19,168 bases of DNA from a bacterium (GTDB lineage Bacteria > UBA4055), in NCBI GenBank assembly GCA_029559475.1, contig JAKQBN010000014.1, positions 1 to 19,168 of the forward strand, written 5' to 3'. The translations under genes and the position numbers were made by a program. Positions within the stretch are counted from its first letter, which is position 1, and the number at the start of each line of letters is the position of its first letter. The notes under the pieces were generated by a model. It was not told the DNA's origin, made no database searches, and worked only from the letters and a program-made list of their open reading frames with translations. This document shows, in pieces, positions 4,594 through 17,304 of the stretch.

Positions 4594-6321
4594 ATGCTTG
4601 ATCAGAAAATAATGGACAGGATACAGAAACTGAAGGACCGCTATCCAAGCAAGGATTCGGCTCTGATGCCCGCATTGATGCTTGCTCAGAAAGCCAACGG
4701 GAATTACCTTTCCGAAGAGGACATGAACGAAGTTTCAAAATTCGTCGGCGTCACATCGGGAAAAGCGTACGGGGTGGCGACCTACTACACGATGTACAAC
4801 ACGAAGAAAGTCGGGAAATTCCATATTCAGGTGGATACGAACATTCCCGCCACTCTTGCCGGAGCGGTAAAGATCCTGGAATTTGTTAAAAAAGAACTTG
4901 GGATCAATCCGGGAGAATCGACAAAAGACGGCTTGTTCACATTAAACGAAGTGGAATGCCTCGCTTCATGCGGCACATGCCCCGTTATTCAGGTAAATGA
5001 TACTTATTTCGAAAATATGACTACCGAAAAGACGAAAAACCTTATCGATTCACTCAAGAAAGGCGTGATGCCTAAACCGGAAGAACCTGTTTATTACGGC
5101 GGAACGGAATGTAACGTTCTTCTCAAGAACAGAAGACTAAAAAATTCCACTTCGATAGAAGTTTATAAAAAGAACGGCGGTTATAAAGCTCTTGCGAAAG
5201 CTCAATCTATGGAGCCTAAGGATATACTGAACGAAGTTAAGATATCAGCCATAAGAGGCAGAGGCGGAGCCGGTTTCCCGGCAGGGGTCAAATGGGGATT
5301 TCTTGCAAAAGGCACAGGTAAACCTATTTATCTGATCTGCAACGCGGATGAGGGCGAACCAGGAACTTTTAAAGACAGACAGATCATGGAGTACGATCCG
5401 CATCTATTAATCGAAGGAATGATAATATCGGCAAAATCCATTGGTTCCAAGCTCGGATTTATTTACATTAGAGGAGAATTCGACTGGATAGCCGATATAC
5501 TTGACAAAGCCATTGATGAAGCTAAAGCAGACGGGCAGATGAAAGATTTCGACATAATAGTTCACAGAGGGGCCGGAGCTTACGTTTGCGGAGAAGAAAC
5601 TGCGCTAATAGAATCTATCGAAGGCAAAAGAGGTCAGCCGAGGATGAAACCTCCTTTCCCTGCTGTTGCAGGACTTTACGGATGTCCAACTATCGTGAAC
5701 AACGTCGAAACACTTGCGAGCGTTCCGTTCATTATCGAGAAAGGCGCGGACGAATTCAAAAATTACGGTTACGAGAATAATACCGGATTCAAGCTTTTCG
5801 GGATCAGCGGCTGCGTGAATAAGCCGGGAGTTTACGAATTCCCCCTCGGAGTGCCCTTCAGCAAGATTCTCGAAGCGGCAGGCGGAGCTAAAGGAAAACT
5901 TAAAGCCGTTATCGTCGGCGGACTGTCAGTACCGATCCTTAAAGCGGATGAACTTGAAGGCTTGAACATGGATTACGATGCCTGCATAAAAAAAGGAACT
6001 ATGCTCGGTTCAGGCGGAATAATGGTCATAAGCGAAGAGTTCTCGATACCAGAAATAGCATACAGAACGATAAAATTCTACGCTCACGAAAGCTGCGGAA
6101 AATGCACGCCCTGCAAAGAAGGTTCGTACACGATCGTAAAAATACTTGAAAAACTTCTAAAAGGTAAAGCAAAGCAGGAAGACCTCGATAATATGATGAG
6201 AGTTATAACTTCGGTCAACGAGGGCGGATCGACGCTCTGTCCTACCGGTCAGGCTTTCGCTATGCCGATAAAAGCAATGTATGAAAAATTCAAAGACGAA
6301 TTTCAGAAACTAATAAAATAA
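4594..6321 (+). CDS. NuoE-NuoF fusion: NAD(H)-reactive diaphorase subunit for formate dehydrogenase
   Basis: A 575-residue fusion. Residues 1 to about 160 match NuoE (24-kDa type): a helical bundle ending YGVATYYTMY, then a thioredoxin-like ferredoxin fold. Residues from about 170 match NuoF (51-kDa type): FMN loop RGRGGAGFPAG (221-231), NADH site NADEGEPGTFKDR (250-262), AYVCGEETALIES (from 329), and [4Fe-4S] ligands C501, C504, C507 and C549. The protein should exchange electrons between NAD(H), via FMN, and the Fe-S chain of a NuoG-like partner, here the formate dehydrogenase 15 bp downstream. Odd feature: the first two Cys ligands of the NuoE [2Fe-2S] cluster are replaced (D81 and A86 in VDTNIPATLAG). 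The second pair, C122 and C126, is kept and an extra C129 is present. Electron bifurcation with ferredoxin is possible by analogy but not shown. The family call is firm. Confidence 0.93.
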   Translation: MLDQKIMDRIQKLKDRYPSKDSALMPALMLAQKANGNYLSEEDMNEVSKFVGVTSGKAYGVATYYTMYNTKKVGKFHIQVDTNIPATLAGAVKILEFVKKELGINPGESTKDGLFTLNEVECLASCGTCPVIQVNDTYFENMTTEKTKNLIDSLKKGVMPKPEEPVYYGGTECNVLLKNRRLKNSTSIEVYKKNGGYKALAKAQSMEPKDILNEVKISAIRGRGGAGFPAGVKWGFLAKGTGKPIYLICNADEGEPGTFKDRQIMEYDPHLLIEGMIISAKSIGSKLGFIYIRGEFDWIADILDKAIDEAKADGQMKDFDIIVHRGAGAYVCGEETALIESIEGKRGQPRMKPPFPAVAGLYGCPTIVNNVETLASVPFIIEKGADEFKNYGYENNTGFKLFGISGCVNKPGVYEFPLGVPFSKILEAAGGAKGKLKAVIVGGLSVPILKADELEGLNMDYDACIKKGTMLGSGGIMVISEEFSIPEIAYRTIKFYAHESCGKCTPCKEGSYTIVKILEKLLKGKAKQEDLDNMMRVITSVNEGGSTLCPTGQAFAMPIKAMYEKFKDEFQKLIK

Positions 6322-6336
6322 AAAACGGAGCCAGTA

Positions 6337-9024
6337 ATGAAAATTACCATTAACGGCAAAAATATAGAAGCCAGAGAAGGACAGACGATTCTTCAGGCTG
6401 CTCTTGCCAATGGAATTTACATCCCGCACCTCTGCTATCACGAAAAGATAGGCGCGGCGGGAAAATGCAGAGCATGTGTAGTTGAAGTAGAAGGAATGAG
6501 AGGGCTTCAGACCTCCTGTTCCGTAATGGCGAAAGAGGATATGGTTGTCAACACCTGTTCTCAAAATGCGCTGAACGCACAGAAGCTTGTGATAGATCTG
6601 ATGCTTTCATCAGGAACTCATGACTGTCTGGCCTGCGAACAGAACGGGAACTGCGAACTTCAGGACGCTGCTTATTTCCTCGGAATAGAAAGACCGTCAG
6701 TTCAATACGGCGAGATCAACAGAGAATTCGATACATCATCTGAATTCGTTTATGTTGAGAGGAACAAATGTATTTCCTGCGGAAGATGCGTTGCAGCATG
6801 TAACACGACCGTCGTGAACCAGGTGCTCGATTTCGGTCACAGAGGACATCATACGGAGATAGTTTTTGATACCGACAAAAAAATGGGAGAATCGTCCTGC
6901 GTACAATGCGGTGAATGCGTTCAGATGTGCCCGGTAGGCGCAATAGTAGATAAAAACGCGCGCGGAAAAGGAAGACTGTGGGATCTGAAAAAGGTAGAAA
7001 CAGTCTGTCCGTACTGCGGAGTAGGCTGCAAGCTAGAGCTTCATGTTAACGAAAAAACGAACAAGATCATTAAAGTCAGGGGGGTAGAAGACGCTCCGGT
7101 CAACAAAGGAATGCTCTGCGTAAAAGGCAGATACGGATTCGATTTCGTCGGTCATCCGGACAGGCTCACAACTCCATTAATCAAAGAGAACGGGCAGTTC
7201 AGAGAAGCTAGCTGGGAAGAAGCTATAGCTTTAGTTGCGTCAAAAATGACGGAGATCAAAGATAAATTCGGGGCAGATACAATAATGGGTCTGGCTTCTG
7301 CAAAAGTTACTAATGAAGAAAACTATACATTCCAGAAATTATTCAGGACAGCGATCGGAACGAACAATATCGATCACTGCGCGCGTCTCTGACATAGCTC
7401 AACAGTGGCCGGTCTGGCCGCATCATTCGGATCAGGAGCTATGACTAACGACATCAACGGAATAAAATCATCAGATGTAGCACTGATAATCGGATCAGAT
7501 ACAACCGAAGCTCACCCCGTTATATCCGCAAGGTTAAAACAGGCAGTGATAGAAGGCAAAACAAAACTTATCGTGATAGATCCCAAAAAGATAAAACTCG
7601 CCGATTTCGCGGCAATTTACGCAAGTCAGAGACCGGGAACAGACGTAGCCGTGATGAACGGAATGATGCACATCATTCTGAAGAACGGCTGGGAAGACAA
7701 GGAATTCATAGCGAACAGAGTTGAACCCGAAGGATTCGAAGCTCTGAAAAAAGAAGTCGAGAAATTCACGCCTGAATACGTCGAAAAGATTTCAGGTATA
7801 CCGGCAAAAACGCTGGAAGAAATAGCTGAACTTTTCGGAAAAGCCAAAGCCGCGGCGATATATTATGCAATGGGTATAACTCAGCATACTACAGGCGTTG
7901 ACAACGTGAAATCAACAGCGAACCTTCAGATGCTCTGCGGGAACATGGGTATTCCCGGCGGCGGCGTAAATCCGTTAAGGGGGCAGTCGAACGTTCAGGG
8001 AGCGTGCGATATGGGCGGACTGCCGAACGTATATACGGCTTATCAGCAGGTCGCTAATGCAGACGCGCAGGCTAAGATGGAAAACTATTGGAAAGTAAAG
8101 CTTAACAACAAGCCCGGCAAACCGATGACGGTAGCTTTTGATGATGCTTACGAAGGGAAAATGAAGGCTTTCTACATTATGGGCGAAAACCCGATGATCT
8201 CGGATCCTGACCTTCATCACGCCGAAGAAGCTCTGAAAAAACTCGAATTTTTAGTAGTCGAAGATATTTTCATGACTGAAACCGCAAAATTCGCTCATGT
8301 AGTTCTGCCGGCTTCGACTTATGCTGAAAAAGAAGGAACTTTCTCCAATACTGAAAGAAGGGTTCAGAAACTCAATCCGGCTGTAAAAGCGCCAGGTTCG
8401 GCACTTCACGACTGGGAGATCCATCAGCTAATAGCCAATAAAATGGGACTCAACTGGAATTACACAAAAGCTGAAGACATATTTAATGAGATAAGGGCGG
8501 TAACACCTTCTTATGCCGGAATGACTTACGACAGGATAGGCAGATACGGTCTTCACTGGCCATGCCCGACGACCGAACATCCCGGAACACCGGTTCTCCA
8601 CGTCGGAAAATTCACAAAAGGACTCGGAACAATGTTCCCGATACCGTTTAAAGATCCTGCAGAGCTTCCCGACGCCGAATTTCCTACATATCTGACAACC
8701 GGCCGTATCCTGCAGCACTTCCATACAGGAACGATGTCGAGAAAATCTGAAGGTCTGAACAATCTTGCCGGACCTCATGTGATGATATCGGTCGAGGATG
8801 CTGAAAGAATAGGCGTTAAGAATTCAGAAATGGTAAAAGTCACGACAAGAAGGGGCAGCATAACAACGAAAGCGTTTATTACGAAAAGAATCCCGAACGG
8901 AACTGCTTTTGTGCCTTTCCATTTCTGGGAAGCGCCTGCTAACCAGTTGACTAACAACGCGCTTGACCCGATCGCGAAAATACCTGAATACAAAGTATGC
9001 GCATGTAAACTTGAAAGAGCATAA
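6337..9024 (+). CDS. Selenocysteine formate dehydrogenase, NuoG-like N-terminus (FDH1)
   Basis: An 895-residue protein read through an in-frame TGA at 7390-7392 as selenocysteine 352, in HCARL-U-HSSTVAG. The N-terminus is NuoG-like: [2Fe-2S] (C33, C44, C47, C61), His-Cys3 [4Fe-4S] (H95, C97, C100, C106) and two ferredoxin-type [4Fe-4S] sites (C145, C148, C151, C198 and C188, C191, C194, C155). The catalytic part has CPYCGVGC (C224, C227, C231, with C261), Sec352-His353, the Mo/W-bis-MGD-binding segments (for example GVNPLRGQSNVQGACDMGGLP) and a C-terminal molybdopterin-dinucleotide domain (YLTTGRILQHFHTGTMSR). It catalyses reversible formate/CO2 interconversion in the cytoplasm; there is no Tat or Sec signal. 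The gene follows the NuoE-F fusion by 15 bp, with ACGGAG before the ATG, so the pair should form a NAD-linked formate dehydrogenase. Mo versus W cannot be decided. Confidence 0.95.
7390..7421 (+). promoter_or_regulatory. SECIS element and Sec codon of FDH1
   Basis: The UGA at 7390-7392 is followed after exactly 18 nt by a GGUCU loop (7411-7415), closed by the 6-bp stem GUGGCC/GGCCGC (7405-7410 with 7416-7421, one G-U pair). E. coli fdhF also has 18 nt between its UGA and the SelB-binding GGUCU loop, as recalled from the published sequence. Confidence 0.9.
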
Positions 9025-9060: not shown

Positions 9061-10689
9061 ATGGCAGAAAAAAGCGGAAACCGTTGGCTGATAGCCATCA
9101 TGGGTACAGTACTACAGATCACTCTGGGTACTATTTATGCATGGAGTTTCTTTCAGAATCCTCTGATCGATAATTCTAAAGAGATCGCCGGAGTTACAGA
9201 GATCACCGCGAACATCGAAACGGCAAAAGCAACATTATTGACCAGCCAGGAAGCTTTACAATCTGCAGAAACAGCATTGCAGGATGCGCTATCTTTAAAT
9301 CAGGCTTCTGCAGCAAACCTTGAAACTGTAAAAGCTGATGCAGGTAAAAAACCTACAAAAGCTAAGCTTGAAATGATCACGGCTGCAGAATCACAGCTCG
9401 CAGCTTCAGAAACAGCAATGACCGAAGCTAATACAATCAAGGCAAATGCTGAAACAGCGGTAAAAACGGCTGAAGAAACTATTACTACAGAAGAGGCGAA
9501 ATTAACTGAAGCCAATAAAAAAGTATGGAACAACTCTCAGGTAGCATGGATACTTTCTTTCTCTATATGTTTCCTGGGTATCGGCGCTATGATCGGCGGA
9601 TTCATCCTGCCCAAATTCGGTCCGCGTAAGCTTGCCGTTACAGGCGCTGTACTTTACGGTCTAGGATGGATACTCGGCGGAATCGCTTTAGGCGGAGATA
9701 ACCCCAGCCTTCCTTTCCTTTACATCGGACTCGGTGTTATAGGCGGTATAGGTCTCGGACTCGGATATGTTACTCCTGTAGCTACGGCTGCAAAATGGTT
9801 CCCGGATAAAAAGGGATTCATCACAGGTATGGTCGTAATGGGATTCGGACTCGGAGCTCTTTTCATGAGCAAAGTATTCGCTCCGGTTATCATGGATATG
9901 TTCACAACGGACGGCGTTACTGATTTCCAGACAGCATTTATAGTGATCGGTCTTGTTCTCGGTATCCCCGGAATAATCGCCGGTCTGACTTTCCAGAATC
10001 CTCCGGCAGGATATGTTCCCGAAGGATATACTCCTCCGGCTGCTACAGCTTCATCTAATGCTCAGGGTAATCTTACGGTAAAAGAAAGCATTATGTCTGG
10101 TCCATTCTGGAAAATATGGTTCTTCTTCTTCTGCAATATTACAGCAGGTATCATGTTCATCGGATTCCAGTCACCGCTTCTCCAGGACCTTCTGAAAAAA
10201 CAGGACGGATCACTGGATAAAGTAGCTCTTGCTGCATCAGGAGCGACCCTTATCGCTATAAGTTCACTGTTCAACGGGATCGGCCGTTTCTTCTGGGGCG
10301 GACTTTCTGACAAGATCGGAAGAGCTCAGGCGTTCAGACTTATTCTCGGAACCCAGCTTGTAGTATTCTTACTTCTTATGGTAGTATCAAGCCCGATAAT
10401 ATTCAGCATTCTCGTATGCTATATACTCCTCTGCTACGGCGGCGGATTCGGTACAGCACCATCATTTGTTATGACCGTATTCGGACCTAAAGTCATGGCA
10501 GTTGTTTACGGAACTCTTCTTACTGCATGGTCAATGGGAGGTCTCGTAGGACCCCAGATCGCTGCTTATTTTAAAGATTCAAATCCTGCGACAGCAGCGA
10601 ACAACACATTCCTGGCGGGAGCGGTATTCCTTCTTGCAGGTCTGATCGTTGCGTTCATGACAAACAATAAAGAATACGGCAAGAACTAA
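9061..10689 (+). CDS. OFA-family MFS transporter (oxalate/formate antiporter type) with inserted helical hairpin
   Basis: A 542-residue membrane protein of the oxalate/formate antiporter family. TM1 is at residues 9-31 (LGTIYAWSFF). TM2 is at about 160-182. After it come the family signatures FGPRKLAVTGAVLYGLGWIL, AKWFPDKKGFITGMVVMGFG and GRFFWGGLSDKIGRAQAF, with about 12 helices overall. It follows FDH1 by 36 bp with AGGAG before the ATG and is the last gene before a strong terminator, so formate or a related carboxylate is the likely substrate. The odd feature is about 110 extra residues (about 45-155) between TM1 and TM2. They are rich in Ala, Glu, Thr and Lys, form two long helices joined by DAGKKPTK, and should lie outside the cytoplasmic membrane. 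Ordinary family members have only a short loop there. Substrate is inferred from context. Confidence 0.88.
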   Translation: MAEKSGNRWLIAIMGTVLQITLGTIYAWSFFQNPLIDNSKEIAGVTEITANIETAKATLLTSQEALQSAETALQDALSLNQASAANLETVKADAGKKPTKAKLEMITAAESQLAASETAMTEANTIKANAETAVKTAEETITTEEAKLTEANKKVWNNSQVAWILSFSICFLGIGAMIGGFILPKFGPRKLAVTGAVLYGLGWILGGIALGGDNPSLPFLYIGLGVIGGIGLGLGYVTPVATAAKWFPDKKGFITGMVVMGFGLGALFMSKVFAPVIMDMFTTDGVTDFQTAFIVIGLVLGIPGIIAGLTFQNPPAGYVPEGYTPPAATASSNAQGNLTVKESIMSGPFWKIWFFFFCNITAGIMFIGFQSPLLQDLLKKQDGSLDKVALAASGATLIAISSLFNGIGRFFWGGLSDKIGRAQAFRLILGTQLVVFLLLMVVSSPIIFSILVCYILLCYGGGFGTAPSFVMTVFGPKVMAVVYGTLLTAWSMGGLVGPQIAAYFKDSNPATAANNTFLAGAVFLLAGLIVAFMTNNKEYGKN

Positions 10690-10748: not shown

Positions 10749-11357
10749 ATGAATAAAAACATAAATATATCGTGCGCGATACTCGCCGGCGGAAAAGCGA
10801 AAAGAATGAATGGCGAGAATAAAGCGCTTTTGAAAATCGGAGAAAAGTCAAATCTTGAAAAGATAATTGCTTTTGCGGATAAATATTTCGGCGAAACGCT
10901 AATAATATCGAATCATCCAACGCACTATAATCAATATCAGAACGTAAAAATATTCAAAGATATTATAACGGACATCGGGCCTTTGGGCGGGATACATTCT
11001 GCCTTAAAAAATGCAAAAGGGAAGGCTGTATTTTTTTTCCCGTGCGACATGCCTTTCATCAATACCGCGCTTGTGGAAGAAGAGATCAAGGAATTTATAA
11101 ATAGAGGCTGCGAGATAATCGTTCCGAAGATAAAGGATTTTTATGAACCCCTGCATTCGATCTATTCAGTTTCGGTCGCCGAGAGGTTTGAACAGCATAT
11201 CAAAACTTCAACAGACCTTTCAGTAAGAAGCTTTTTTTCGAAAGCGAATGTATTTTTCTGGGAACTCGAAGATAGTGAAGTTAACAGGAAAAGTTTTATC
11301 AACATAAACACTAAGCACGATCTTCTTAACGCGATCGGGCTTCACAAACCGGAATAA
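10749..11357 (+). CDS. mobA: Molybdenum cofactor guanylyltransferase
   Basis: A 202-residue nucleotidyltransferase of normal length for the family. It shows the GTP-binding signature LAGGKAKRM (12-20) followed by NKALL, the GPLGGI loop (77-82), and the metal-binding PCDMPF (98-103). It would attach GMP from GTP to molybdopterin to make the MGD form that bis-MGD formate dehydrogenases need. The start has to be at or upstream of 10749, because the next ATG falls inside the LAGG motif. No normal SD is visible: the ATG sits directly after a terminator hairpin. The gene is followed 6 bp later by fdhD, so the two form an accessory operon. That operon is either transcribed by read-through from the formate operon or from a promoter not recognised here. 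Confidence 0.9.
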   Translation: MNKNINISCAILAGGKAKRMNGENKALLKIGEKSNLEKIIAFADKYFGETLIISNHPTHYNQYQNVKIFKDIITDIGPLGGIHSALKNAKGKAVFFFPCDMPFINTALVEEEIKEFINRGCEIIVPKIKDFYEPLHSIYSVSVAERFEQHIKTSTDLSVRSFFSKANVFFWELEDSEVNRKSFININTKHDLLNAIGLHKPE

Positions 11358-11363
11358 ATTCAA

Positions 11364-12146
11364 ATGGAAATCTCAACTTTTAAAAATATAATAAAATATA
11401 GAAATAACGTCAGGTCAAAGATCTCGGATCAGGTCGTTAATGAAATGATCCTGAATCTGGCTATTGATTATAAGAATTTAAGCTTTTTGACCTGCTCTCC
11501 CGAGCAGCTTGAAGAATTAACGGCGGGGTATCTTGTAACTTCGGGTATAGTTACAGAAGAAAACAGGCTTGTAAGCCTCAATTACGAAGAAAGTAAAAAT
11601 ATCATGCATATTGAGCTTGCGGATAACTCTGTTATAAAGGAAATGGTATTTTCGAAGCTAAAACCTGTAGGATGCGGTGCGGGGACCCTTTTATTTAATC
11701 TTAACCGTTCAGGTAATACGCCGGCATGGGATTTTACTATAACAAATATGCAAATATCAGCCGTAATGAACGAATTCAATAAATCATCTGAGTTGTTTCT
11801 TGCAACCGGAGGAGTTCACAGTGCGGCGGTAACCGACGGAAATTCAATTCTAGTTATGCGCGAAGACATAGGAAGGCATAACGCGATAGATAAGGTCATA
11901 GGTAACATTTATCTGGCAGGAAAACCATTGAGTGATAAGATCGTTCTCACAAGCGGGCGAATTTCGTCTGAGATAGTCTTAAAGCTTATCTATGCAGGTG
12001 TAAGAATGCTCATATCAAGAAGCGCTCCGACTCAGAAAGCGGTTGAACTGGCAGAAGAGAACGGAATAACGCTCGTAGGTTTTGCGCGAAGCACGAATTT
12101 TAATGTATATTCGCATTTCGAAAGGGTTCTGTTCGAACAGAATTAA
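11364..12146 (+). CDS. fdhD: Formate dehydrogenase accessory sulfurtransferase FdhD
   Basis: A 260-residue FdhD. Known role: it transfers sulfur from a cysteine desulfurase to the Mo/W-bis-MGD cofactor and hands the sulfurated cofactor to formate dehydrogenase. Visible signatures are LTAGYLVTSGIV (52-63), GGVHSAAV followed by MREDIGRHNAIDKVIG, and the C-terminal LTSGRISSEIVLKLIYAGV and GFARSTNFNVYSH. The sulfur-relay loop reads VGCGAG with a single Cys (C104), where E. coli has a two-Cys CxxC loop. Length and other motifs are normal, so it is probably functional. The gene lies 6 bp after mobA and 30 bp before a ModE-type regulator. Confidence 0.95.
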   Translation: MEISTFKNIIKYRNNVRSKISDQVVNEMILNLAIDYKNLSFLTCSPEQLEELTAGYLVTSGIVTEENRLVSLNYEESKNIMHIELADNSVIKEMVFSKLKPVGCGAGTLLFNLNRSGNTPAWDFTITNMQISAVMNEFNKSSELFLATGGVHSAAVTDGNSILVMREDIGRHNAIDKVIGNIYLAGKPLSDKIVLTSGRISSEIVLKLIYAGVRMLISRSAPTQKAVELAEENGITLVGFARSTNFNVYSHFERVLFEQN

Positions 12147-12792: not shown

Positions 12793-15471
12793 ATGAACAT
12801 TACCATCAACGGAAAACAGGTTGAAGCCAGAGAAGGACAGACCGTTCTTCAGGCAGCTCTTGCGGCAGGTATTTACATCCCGCATCTATGCTATCACGAA
12901 AAAGTCGGCGTAGCCGGCAAATGCAGAGCCTGCGTTGTTGAGATCGAAGGCATGAGAGGCCTGCAGACTTCATGTTCTGTTATAGTAAAAGAGGACATGA
13001 ATGTAACTACGAACAGTCCGACCGTTCTCAACGCTCAGAGGCTTGTTGTCGATCTTATGCTTTCATCGGGGACTCACGACTGCCTTGCCTGCGAGCAGAA
13101 CGGGAACTGCGAACTTCAGGATGCGGCATATTATCTGGGGATCGAAAGGCCGTCGGTTCAGTATGGCGAGATCAACAGGGAATTCGACATATCCTCGGAA
13201 TTTATTTACGTTGAAAGGAACAAATGTATTTCCTGCGGAAGATGCGTCGCGGCGTGTAATAACGTCGTTGTAAACGAAGTTCTTGATTTCGGGCACAGAG
13301 GCCATCATACCGAGATAGTTTTTGATGCCGATAAAAAGATGGGTGAATCTACCTGTGTTCAGTGCGGCGAATGTGTTCAGATATGTCCTGTAGGAGCGAT
13401 AGTCGAGAAAAAGAACAAGGGAAGATCACGTTACTGGGAAACACAGAAAGTAAGAACAACCTGCCCTTACTGCGGAGTCGGCTGCCAGCTTGAACTTCAC
13501 GTTAAAGACGATCAGATAGTAAAGGTTACGGGTGTAGAGGATGCGGAACCGAATAAAGGAAGGCTCTGCGTGAAGGGAAGATTCGGATATGATTTCATAT
13601 ATTCGAAAGACAGGCTGACTACTCCTTTAGTAAAGGAAAAAGGTCAGTTCAGAGAAGCATCATGGGATGAAGCTCTGGGACTTATTGCAAGTAAATTCAA
13701 AGCTATTATAGAAAAGGACGGACCGGACGCTGTAGCGGGCGTAAGCTGTGCAAGAAGTATCAACGAAGACTCATACAGCATGCAGAAGCTTTTCAGAAGC
13801 GTCTTCAAGACCAATAATATAGACCACTGCGCCCGGACTTGACATGCTCCGACCGTTGCCGGTCTGGCAACTTCATTTGGATCAGGAGCGATGACTAACT
13901 CATTCTCGGAGTTCAGGAACGCAAAATGCTTTCTCTGTATAGGAACTAACATGACAGAGGCTCATCCCGTAGCGGCGACATTTTTAAAGAACGCCGTAAG
14001 GAACGGAGCGACACTAATCGTTGTCGATCCGAGAAAACAGCCGCTTGTAAAACACGCAAAACTTCATGCGCAGATCAAAGTAGGAACGGACGTTGCTTTC
14101 TTAAACGGGCTTATGTATGTTCTGATAAAAGAAGATCTTTATGATAAAGAATTCGTAGAGAAGAACTGCTTAGATTTCGAAGCTTTAAAAGAAACTGTAA
14201 TGAAATATCCTCCGGAAAGAGCAGCTGATATCTGCAAGATTAAACCTGAGCTTATAGTCGAAATAGCGAAAACGCTCGCTTCCGTAAAACCAGCTATGCT
14301 GTGCTATACCCTCGGGATCACCGAACACACATGCGGCAAGAACAACGTTATGAGCACTGCCAACCTTCAGATGCTTCTGGGTAATATGGGAATGGAAAGC
14401 GCCGGCGTAAATCCTTTAAGGGGCCAGAACAACGTTCAGGGAGCCTGCGATATGGGCGCTCTTCCTAACGTTTATCCGGGATATCAGAAAGTTATCGATC
14501 CCGCGGCTAAAGAGAAATTCGAGAAAGCATGGGGCGTAACAGGCATGTCCGACAAGAACGGAATTATGATGCCCGATATGATGGACGGGCTTGTTTCTAA
14601 AAAGATAAAAGGATTCTGGATATTCGGCGAGAACCTTGCCAACTCGGAACCGGACATCTCTCACGTAGAGCACTGCCTTGAATCCGCTGAATTTTTAGTC
14701 GTTCAGGATATTTTCCCGAACGAAACAACAAAATTCGCCGATGTAATTCTTCCTTCAGCGGCGTGGAGCGAAGACAACGGTACTTTCACAAGCAGCGAGA
14801 GAAGGATAAACAGAGTCCGTTCGGTCAAGAATCCGCCCGGGATCGCCAAACCGAACTGGTGGATTTTTAAAGAACTTGCTAAACACATGGGGCACAACTG
14901 GCCTTCGAACAGCGGTCAGGAACTTTGGGACAACGAGATATCTGTGCTCGCTCCTGCTTACAGCGGAGTTAAGTACTCAAGGATCGAAAATGACGGTCTG
15001 CAGTGGCCATGCCCGACCGTTGAACATCCGGGAACAAAATTTCTGCATAAAGACGGAAAATTCTCTCACGGGAAAGGAGTATTCAAATCCGTTGAGTGGA
15101 CACCTCCGGCCGAAGTCGAAGACAAGGATTTCCCGTTCGTTTTAAGTACGGGAAGAAGGCTCTATCAGTACCACACGAGAACTCAGACAGGAAGAGCCGG
15201 AATGGACGCTCTTTATAAAGAGGAAACAGCTGATATTTCGGTAGCCGATGCAGAAAGGCTAGGAATTAAACACGGCGAGAAGGTATATGTTGAATCGAGA
15301 AGGGGTAAAGTTCATGTTTCGGCAAGAGTGACCGAAGAAGTTCCGGCCGGAATGGTCTGGATGACTTTCCATTATCGCGAAGGGAACGCGAATTGGCTAA
15401 CCAATCCCGCATTCGATCCTGAAACGAAAACGGCGGAGTACAAAGCCTGCGCCGTAAATGTGTATAAATAA
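12793..15471 (+). CDS. Second selenocysteine formate dehydrogenase (FDH2)
   Basis: An 892-residue paralogue of FDH1 with the same domain order: NuoG-like [2Fe-2S], His-Cys3 and two ferredoxin clusters, then CPYCGVGC, Sec, the bis-MGD segments (GVNPLRGQNNVQGACDMGALP) and the C-terminal dinucleotide-binding domain (VLSTGRRLYQYHTRTQTGR). The in-frame TGA at 13840-13842 encodes Sec350 in HCART-U-HAPTVAG. The ATG at 12793 is preferred over an upstream TTG at 12778 because GGAGG lies 4 nt before it. Over the first 200 residues it differs from FDH1 at only 27 positions by hand count, whereas after Sec roughly half the residues differ. It has its own promoter and terminator and no adjacent NuoE-F gene, so it either shares the upstream diaphorase or uses another partner. 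Expected reaction: formate/CO2 interconversion in the cytoplasm. Confidence 0.95.
13840..13871 (+). promoter_or_regulatory. SECIS element and Sec codon of FDH2
   Basis: The UGA at 13840-13842 is followed after exactly 18 nt by a GGUCU loop (13861-13865), closed by the perfect 6-bp stem GUUGCC/GGCAAC (13855-13860 with 13866-13871). Spacing and loop are identical to FDH1, while the stem sequence has co-varied. Confidence 0.92.
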
Positions 15472-15538: not shown

Positions 15539-16285
15539 TTGAATATCTTAGAAAAACTTCTCGCCGGTTCAATTCATTCGGCAGAGAATAAAACAGTCAA
15601 AACCGTAACTCTGGGAGTTAATTACTGTGCGGTGCAGATATGTAACCGACATGCGGGACTATCCTGGACATGGTCACATCAAGACTGCTGCGGGCAGGAT
15701 AAAGAGAGATTTACCGACTATGAAGGAATGCCGGCCGTCGAACTTTTGAAAAATCTTACAGTAAGCAGTCCGTCATCACGCAGTATGGCAATGGCTCTTT
15801 TGAATGCGCTTAATTCTGAAAGAGCAGAAAAATTTCCCCATGATTATGACAACAGCACGGTTTTTGATACGCTAAACCTGAAGAAAAACAGCAGACTCGT
15901 AATGGTCGGTTTTTTCAGGCCTGTAGTAAAGCTGTTACAAGAAAAGGGCGTTGATATCTACATCGCCGATAAAGGCAATAACATGGGAGATGAAGAAGAA
16001 CTCACGGACAGGCTGAATAGCTGGGCAGAAGCAGCTATTCTAAGCTCGACAAGCATAGTTAACGGCACTTACGACAGCCTGATCAGCATGTGCGGGAAAA
16101 GATACCCCGTAGCTATGCTCGGACCTACAACGCCATTATTCCCTGAAATATTTAAAGATTACGGAGTAAGTATTCTAGCAGGTTCTGTTGTAAATGACTC
16201 TGATATGATAATGAAGCTGATAAGGCAGGGGGCAGGAACGCCGGATTTTAAGCACTACACGAAAAAAGTTTATGTAAAAATATAG
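15539..16285 (+). CDS. DUF4213/DUF364 Rossmann-like protein (putative metal-handling)
   Basis: A 248-residue protein with a TTG start and GGTGA 6 nt upstream; a GTG at 15529 is out of frame. Residues 1 to about 90 match the DUF4213 enolase-N-like domain (TLGVNYCAVQ and the SRSMAMALLNAL helix). From about 105 it matches the DUF364 Rossmann-like domain (SRLVMVGFFRPVVKLL, then ILSSTSIVNGTYDSLI and MLGPTTPL). The family is described as possibly chelating heavy metals and often lies beside metal-uptake or molybdo/tungsto-enzyme genes; its biochemistry is unproven. Cys and His cluster in the N-terminal part (QICNRH, SHQDCCGQD). It lies after the FDH2 terminator and 16 bp before an FmdE-like gene, so a role in handling Mo/W or its cofactor is plausible but inferred. 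Confidence 0.82.
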   Translation: MNILEKLLAGSIHSAENKTVKTVTLGVNYCAVQICNRHAGLSWTWSHQDCCGQDKERFTDYEGMPAVELLKNLTVSSPSSRSMAMALLNALNSERAEKFPHDYDNSTVFDTLNLKKNSRLVMVGFFRPVVKLLQEKGVDIYIADKGNNMGDEEELTDRLNSWAEAAILSSTSIVNGTYDSLISMCGKRYPVAMLGPTTPLFPEIFKDYGVSILAGSVVNDSDMIMKLIRQGAGTPDFKHYTKKVYVKI

Positions 16286-16301
16286 AAAACAAGGAACTTC
16301 A

Positions 16302-16880
16302 ATGAGCGATATTTGCGGAATGAAATATGACGAATATGTTAAATTGGTCACAGACTTTCACGGAACTGTCGCACCGGGACTGATCATCGGTGGATATATG
16401 GTCGATATGGCCTACAAAAAACTTCCGAAAGGCGGATTGTATGATGTTGTATGCGAATCGGTAAAATGTCTGCCTGATGCTGTTCAGCTTCTCACACCCT
16501 GCACAATCGGTAACGGCTGGCTTAAGATCGAAAAGATAGGCAGATTCGCAATTACTTTCTATGATAAATACACAGGAGAAGGAATAAGATTATATCTCGA
16601 CAATGAAAAATTAAAAGATTATCCGCCTGTTCAGGAATGGTTTTTTAGAACTAAACCGAAACACGATCAGGATTCGGAAGCGCTTTTAAGATCGATCAAA
16701 GAGGCCGGAAGCAGCATAATTTCAGTACAGAAGGTTTTAGTAGAAATAAAGAAAGATAATAAGGAAAAACACACAATAGCGTCAGTCTGCCCGGTGTGCG
16801 GAGAGTCGTATCCTTTTAGAGAAGGAAAAGACATGTGCAAGGTCTGCAGCGGAGAAATAAAATATTATTCGAAAATATGA
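16302..16880 (+). CDS. Stand-alone FmdE-like protein with C-terminal zinc ribbon
   Basis: A 192-residue protein of the FmdE family, named after a gene in molybdenum formylmethanofuran dehydrogenase operons. The core has FHGTVAPGLIIGGYM (19-33), the Cys-rich segment VCESVKCLPDAVQLLTPCTIGNG split over residues 50-72 (C51, C56, C67), then a beta-rich part. The C-terminus is a probable Zn ribbon: C163, C166, C179, C182. No formylmethanofuran dehydrogenase genes are present, so this is one of the many bacterial FmdE homologues found near molybdo- or tungsto-enzymes. A cofactor or metal chaperone role is often supposed but not established. AAGGA precedes the ATG. It sits 16 bp after DUF364 and 28 bp before the second ModE-like gene, so all three probably form one operon. 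Confidence 0.88.
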   Translation: MSDICGMKYDEYVKLVTDFHGTVAPGLIIGGYMVDMAYKKLPKGGLYDVVCESVKCLPDAVQLLTPCTIGNGWLKIEKIGRFAITFYDKYTGEGIRLYLDNEKLKDYPPVQEWFFRTKPKHDQDSEALLRSIKEAGSSIISVQKVLVEIKKDNKEKHTIASVCPVCGESYPFREGKDMCKVCSGEIKYYSKI

Positions 16881-16908: not shown

Positions 16909-17304
16909 ATGAGCCCTGACAGGCCGAAAATAAGATTCAATTATAAAGTATGGCTCGAGACCGAAGACGGCGAGGGTATCTTCGGCTATGGTCAGATGAG
17001 GCTCTTAAAGGCGATCGAAGAATCTGGAACGCTTAAATCCGCTTCAAATGAAACGGGATTCAATTATAAAAAAAGTCTGGCTAAATTGAAAGAGATCGAG
17101 GATATCCTGGGCTACCGGATAGTAAAACAACAAAGAGATAACGGAAGAAGATTTACCGGACTTACCGAAGAGGGAAAACTGCTTATTCAATTTATCGAGG
17201 ATTTTAATAAAACCTATGAAAAGCTTATTAATAAAGCATGCGAGGAAGCCAGCGATAAGCTGAATTCAGGATTAAGATCGTGTAAAAGTAATATTGACAA
17301 ATGA
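16909..17304 (+). CDS. ModE N-terminal-type winged-helix regulator, DNA-binding domain only (copy 2)
   Basis: A 131-residue paralogue of the regulator at 12177. It shares IRFNYK, GYGQMRLLKAI, ESGTLKSA, GFNYKKSLAKLKEIE and a LTEEGKLLI wing. Like copy 1 it lacks the Mop/TOBE molybdate-binding domains of full-length ModE, and it ends in a short Lys- and Ser-rich tail. GGAGAAG precedes the ATG. It is the last gene of the DUF364-FmdE unit and is followed by a bidirectional terminator. The two copies diverge around the recognition helix (RKSWGK against KKSLAK) and in the tail, so they may read different sites. Effector sensing, if any, must come from a partner protein. Confidence 0.85.
   Translation: MSPDRPKIRFNYKVWLETEDGEGIFGYGQMRLLKAIEESGTLKSASNETGFNYKKSLAKLKEIEDILGYRIVKQQRDNGRRFTGLTEEGKLLIQFIEDFNKTYEKLINKACEEASDKLNSGLRSCKSNIDK

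Follow-up and report, generated by a model that had tools for sequence, protein, structure and literature searches.

An MFS carrier of small acids that works as a single protein is normally a compact molecule whose outer loops are very short. Why, then, does one such carrier, encoded in a 19,168-nucleotide bacterial contig (the window, meaning the whole stretch of DNA analysed), have a long additional segment between its first two transmembrane helices, TM1 and TM2, and what might that segment do? The initial annotation of the window described it as a long extracytoplasmic helical hairpin on a formate-type transporter. The features discussed below are located in Table 1.

Table 1. Coordinates of the transporter, its insert and neighbouring genes (positions in the window)
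Feature	Position	Strand	Remark
NuoE-NuoF fusion, likely NADH-linked FDH partner	4594..6321	+	575-aa protein
Selenocysteine formate dehydrogenase (FDH) alpha	6337..9024	+	TIGR01591, 852.7 bits with UGA read as Sec
MFS carboxylate transporter, SfMCT/OxlT-like, 542 aa	9061..10689	+	ORF open, in frame
Insert between TM1 and TM2, residues 37-155	9169..9525	+	absent from 78/81 compared homologues
Predicted hairpin helix 1, residues 45-94 (50 aa)	9193..9342	+	AlphaFold2; heptad core VILLLNLA / IASAASV
Most conserved stretch, residues 86-118	9316..9414	+	31/33 invariant
Predicted tip turn, residues 95-99 (GKKPT)	9343..9357	+	invariant in three species
Predicted hairpin helix 2, residues 100-152 (53 aa)	9358..9516	+	AlphaFold2; heptad core ILMKVIL / KASAAAEA
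TM2, helix 158-186	9532..9618	+	directly after W156, where homologues resume
MobA-like molybdenum cofactor guanylyltransferase	10749..11357	+	best match, below cut-off
FdhD	11364..12146	+	TIGR00129, over cut-off

TM1 (...YAWSFFQNPLI) and TM2 (VWNNSQVAWIL...) are spaced by 127 residues in the window protein. The same loop has 12 residues in 77 of 78 other close homologues and 15 in the remaining one, so that the gain in length relative to homologues is about 115 residues. The insert as first annotated stands; its limits, originally given as residues 45-155 (about 110 residues), prove slightly wider, at about 37-155. It is in frame, as had been stated (9193-9525 encodes residues 45-155), and the claim that it has no hydrophobic span agrees with a highest 19-residue Kyte-Doolittle mean of 0.78. 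Cys and aromatic residues are absent from it. An assembly error is ruled out because an insert of equal length occupies the same site in the separate assemblies of two other species (L031 and L032).

The carrier around the insert is of a known kind. It matches the MFS model of Pfam, PF07690, with 122.1 bits (gathering cut-off 33.4) and marginally passes NF049980, the NCBIfam model of the L-lactate transporter SfMCT, with 323.3 bits against a cut-off of 320, about 3 bits over; its genus homologues score 327.3 (G001/L031) and 320.8 (G002/L032). The earlier description of an otherwise standard OFA transporter needs correction, since the cut-off of the oxalate/formate antiporter family TIGR00890 is missed widely (182.6 vs 374.85 bits). 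The full-length predicted fold resembles that of OxlT, the oxalate:formate antiporter (8hpk; Z 41.8, 381 residues, rmsd 3.0, 26% identity), and that of the Syntrophobacter fumaroxidans transporter SfMCT (6g9x; Z 40.6), with which it shares the 12-TM core, the match spanning the whole carrier. The core can be aligned with both by sequence too, with 30-31% identity to SfMCT over aligned residues. Both known carriers lack the hairpin, and the TM1-TM2 loop of SfMCT aligns without an insert.

The same sequence alignments suggest what is carried. The SfMCT carboxylate site, Y119, N276, R280 and D378, is kept as Y236, N405, R409 and D506, of which Y236 in TM4 and N405 and R409 in TM8 are invariant across 29 homologues; N405 and R409 also correspond to OxlT Asn268 and Arg272. 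F369 stands at the aligned place of the proton-coupling His of SfMCT TM7 (H250), for which reason the protein is termed SfMCT-like and is not classed as an orthologue of SfMCT. In OxlT, Lys355 binds the second oxalate carboxylate (PMC10070484). This second basic residue, in TM11, is absent here, and its place is taken by W490, again invariant in 29 homologues. With the SfMCT carboxylate site kept and W490 in place of Lys355, a monocarboxylate fits better than oxalate.

Gene context narrows the choice further and also sets the gene apart from that of SfMCT. The transporter gene lies in a formate dehydrogenase operon; the FDH alpha gene ends 36 bases upstream of it, and the order FDH1-MFS-MobA-FdhD is kept in L031 and L032. 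The proposal that homologues sit beside FDH genes is borne out more widely: an FDH homologue lies near the transporter in 30 of 80 homologue loci from many phyla (within fetched flanks, many contigs ending close by), and several of the homologue loci have a fused NuoE-NuoF gene together with FDH. Because FDH neighbours recur across phyla, formate appears to be the most likely substrate; judged by this context, the carrier likely transports formate or a related monocarboxylate.

TM1-TM2 loops of MFS carriers are extracytoplasmic, and the MFS TM2-TM3 motif, GGFILPKFGPRK in the window protein, faces the cytoplasm. Both termini are cytoplasmic in MFS carriers of this family (PMC6573034). With the N-terminus inside and GGFILPKFGPRK in the cytoplasm, the TM1-TM2 loop faces the periplasm, and on general knowledge of MFS carriers the hairpin should therefore lie on the extracytoplasmic side, as first annotated.

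Structure prediction of the insert region, which had been set beforehand as a check, yields a confident antiparallel helical hairpin and not disorder. AlphaFold2, run on the full-length protein with a 29-sequence alignment, gives a mean pLDDT of 90.2 and a pTM of 0.82. Block-mean pLDDT is 92-98 in the two arms of this model, and the insert modelled alone is helical almost throughout, as two helices (pLDDT 94.5, pTM 0.78), values to be read with the caveat that long charged helices often receive high pLDDT from AlphaFold2. The two arms had been estimated at about 45 and 55 residues, with a central break at DAGKKPTK; the predicted lengths are 50 and 53, and the predicted break falls close to the guess. 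In the model, helix 1 begins right after TM1b (helix 29-43) and helix 2 stops six residues before TM2, and by arithmetic at 1.5 Å per residue each arm would reach ∼7.5-8 nm. Heptad periodicity is modest in power spectra (P=0.02 and 0.009 for the two arms of the window protein) and weaker in relatives. Each helix has one large and one Ala-rich column, a pattern that fits a close-packed antiparallel pair.

The insert is confined to one lineage. All three sequenced species of the Candidatus Delongbacteria genus carry it, and all 78 other close homologues compared lack it. A close homologue is present in 4 of 13 genomes of the phylum, these being the three genus members and G009, whose protein (L064), from another genus of the same family, has no insert. 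The idea that homologues in related genomes keep it thus holds within the genus and fails for L064. Among the matches listed from a search of 386 genomes with the SfMCT profile, a break at position ∼30 occurs only in the three genus members; in the other split matches listed the break lies at ∼130-158, in the TM5-TM6 loop. Some family members, including L064 (G009) and those of G083, G224 and G353, have inserts of ∼30-60 residues in this TM5-TM6 periplasmic loop instead. In a quick maximum-likelihood tree built with the insert left out, the three carriers form one clade (SH-aLRT 100) nested in a supported group whose other members, from Fermentibacterota, Spirochaetota and Pseudomonadota, lack the insert; a single gain thus suffices. 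The open-access literature yielded no OFA or MCT member with such a hairpin, in keeping with the initial annotation, which knew of none described.

Several sources of the insert have been considered. Copying from elsewhere in the genome is ruled out by the absence of a second copy in its own genome (E≤10) and in seven relatives. TRF finds no tandem repeat, only short 17-base partial repeats being present, which argues against repeat expansion, and a mobile or phage origin is rejected for lack of matches among phages, plasmids and PHROGs. Nor does the insert match a known domain: Pfam and PDB-sequence matches are at chance level, and NCBIfam coiled-coil look-alikes score far below cut-off. Thus no significant sequence relative of the hairpin emerges from any of these collections, coiled-coils being fast to diverge. 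A fold search with the hairpin alone returns generic hairpins only, none at E≤0.001. For example, the receptor-binding hairpin of colicins E2/E3 (2ysu, 1ujw) has a similar shape (TM-score 0.84, rmsd 2.0-2.1), with 10-11% identity and E-values of 3.5e-3 or worse, a common shape that does not imply kinship.

The insert is under purifying selection. Pairwise dN/dS is 0.12-0.16 in the insert vs 0.04-0.07 in the core (Nei-Gojobori, with some dS near saturation), and amino acid identity among the three species is 74-76% vs about 93-96%. Conservation is unevenly spread. Invariant residues cluster at 86-118 more strongly than in 99.9% of shuffles (permutation P=0.00075), and outside the tip 19 of 22 heptad-core positions are invariant vs 23 of 53 elsewhere (P=5e-4; register picked by hydrophobicity alone, tip excluded), a clearer heptad signal than that of the power spectra, these tests having low power because the only three carriers are all close species. 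The base of helix 1 is just 61-63% identical between species. What drifts in the rod is its outer surface; its length and packing persist, and the tip stays fixed. Codon use had been called like that of the neighbours, which does not hold: in all three species GC3 is lower in the insert (0.24-0.29 vs 0.40-0.45 in the core) and the Leu codons TTA/TTG are in excess (6/10, 6/9 and 5/9 vs 2/48, 4/48 and 7/46 in the core; for the window gene, Fisher P=1e-4 against the rest). Amino acid composition, a separate origin of the insert or a slowing of translation in the arms could each account for this difference.

Given the insert, its genus restriction, the selection on it, its predicted fold and its gene context, all read from sequence and computation, the hairpin is best explained as an accessory rod fused to the carrier on its periplasmic side, with a conserved tip that would bind an envelope component, a reading to which we assign a probability of roughly 0.4 and for which we infer substrate, docking and partner. 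That the tip is fixed while the rod surface drifts suggests contact between the tip and something else, although the conserved tip could instead reflect a folding constraint of the turn. In the proposed mechanism, the 12-TM carrier of formate or a similar monocarboxylate would serve the adjacent, probably NADH-linked, selenocysteine FDH. The stem ancestor of the Delongbacteria genus would have acquired the insert, ∼115 residues long, where TM1 reaches the periplasm, and this would fold as an antiparallel two-helix coiled-coil rod of ∼50 residues per arm, projecting from TM1/TM2. The Lys-rich tip would dock on an envelope partner, either peptidoglycan or a protein of the periplasm or outer membrane, and docking would keep the carrier close to an assembly or a source of substrate. 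Only tentatively can it be added that the carrier's own rod might link it to one specific envelope partner, with uptake or release of substrate at a defined site. It is equally tentative that such a rod would correspond, in bacteria and in fused form, to the pairing of MCT with basigin, an arrangement not described for this carrier family.

A different proposal is that the hairpin works within the transporter, in contact with other periplasmic loops or with another copy of the protein, so as to tune the opening of the carrier or to bundle copies. Its arms join the carrier almost directly at TM1b and TM2, and there are precedents: efflux by QacA depends on EL7, a hairpin that joins TM13 to TM14 and acts through EL1 (PMC10425836), and MmpL5 loses all efflux when its coiled-coil, a predicted trimeric tube, is deleted (PMC12501195). 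However, most of a ∼8 nm rod would be too distant from the carrier loops, the QacA hairpin having ∼27 residues, and conservation peaks at the tip and not at the base. MFS carriers of this type are, moreover, mostly monomeric. An intramolecular role is thus somewhat unlikely. Also unlikely is an insert of little function, either a spacer that is tolerated or the product of a recent low-complexity expansion. Its richness in Ala, Thr, Glu and Lys, deviating GC3 and Leu codons, divergent helix 1 base and confinement to one genus would fit such an origin, but its equal length in three species, low dN/dS, heptad-patterned conservation, nearly invariant tip and lack of tandem repeats would not.

As an antenna, a charged rod could also gather protons and substrate anions around the transport mouth and so be a fused counterpart of basigin Ig-I, which raises lactate uptake by MCT1 via oppositely charged patches (PMC7996999). 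The insert does contain 17-19 acidic and 12-13 basic residues, but stretches of 15 residues have a net charge of only +1 to -2, and charge would be expected near the mouth, whereas the conserved part is the far tip, making an antenna improbable. A cytoplasmic or disordered loop, for which these analyses found no supporting evidence, is highly improbable in view of the MFS topology, the two confidently helical models and the whole-carrier fold matches to OxlT and SfMCT.

The accessory rod favoured here has partial likenesses among known transporters. MmpL5 also has a long antiparallel coiled-coil inserted in its periplasmic part, but it differs in its unrelated RND fold, its 196-residue insert, its ∼13 nm tube and a tip disulphide. 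QacA (MFS, DHA2) similarly bears an extracytoplasmic helical hairpin on an MFS carrier, although EL7 is short (residues 441-467) and directed to the bilayer. The haloacid permease Deh4p (MFS, MHS) has a long periplasmic loop too, of ∼118 residues, that no other member of its subfamily shares (PMC2777183); this is the fifth periplasmic loop, towards the C-terminus, and is not known to have been described as a hairpin. MmpL5, QacA and basigin would be functional analogues only, as none of the tests indicates kinship to the hairpin.

The kind of transporter is known; the lineage-restricted hairpin on it appears to be new, and its predicted fold is well supported. A selected rod of ∼8 nm that was gained once would offer a clean natural experiment on an extracytoplasmic accessory domain of a carboxylate carrier, because insert-less near relatives can serve as controls. 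If the rod does dock on a partner, this would point to formate exchange being organised within the envelope of an uncultured lineage.

The wider neighbourhood contains a second FDH group. In each of the two FDH alpha genes a single in-frame TGA falls within the active-site motif, at 7390-7392 (HCARL-U-HSSTV) and near 13840-13845 (HCART-U-HAPTV), and with this codon read as selenocysteine both pass TIGR01591. Each FDH group is followed by a short ModE-type DNA-binding protein; the one at 12177-12563 matches the ModE domain below cut-off, and the one at 16909-17304 is similar by eye. After the second FDH, 15539-16880 encodes two proteins of 248 and 192 aa with no NCBIfam match at E≤1e-10, the 192-aa protein being FmdE-like by eye only.
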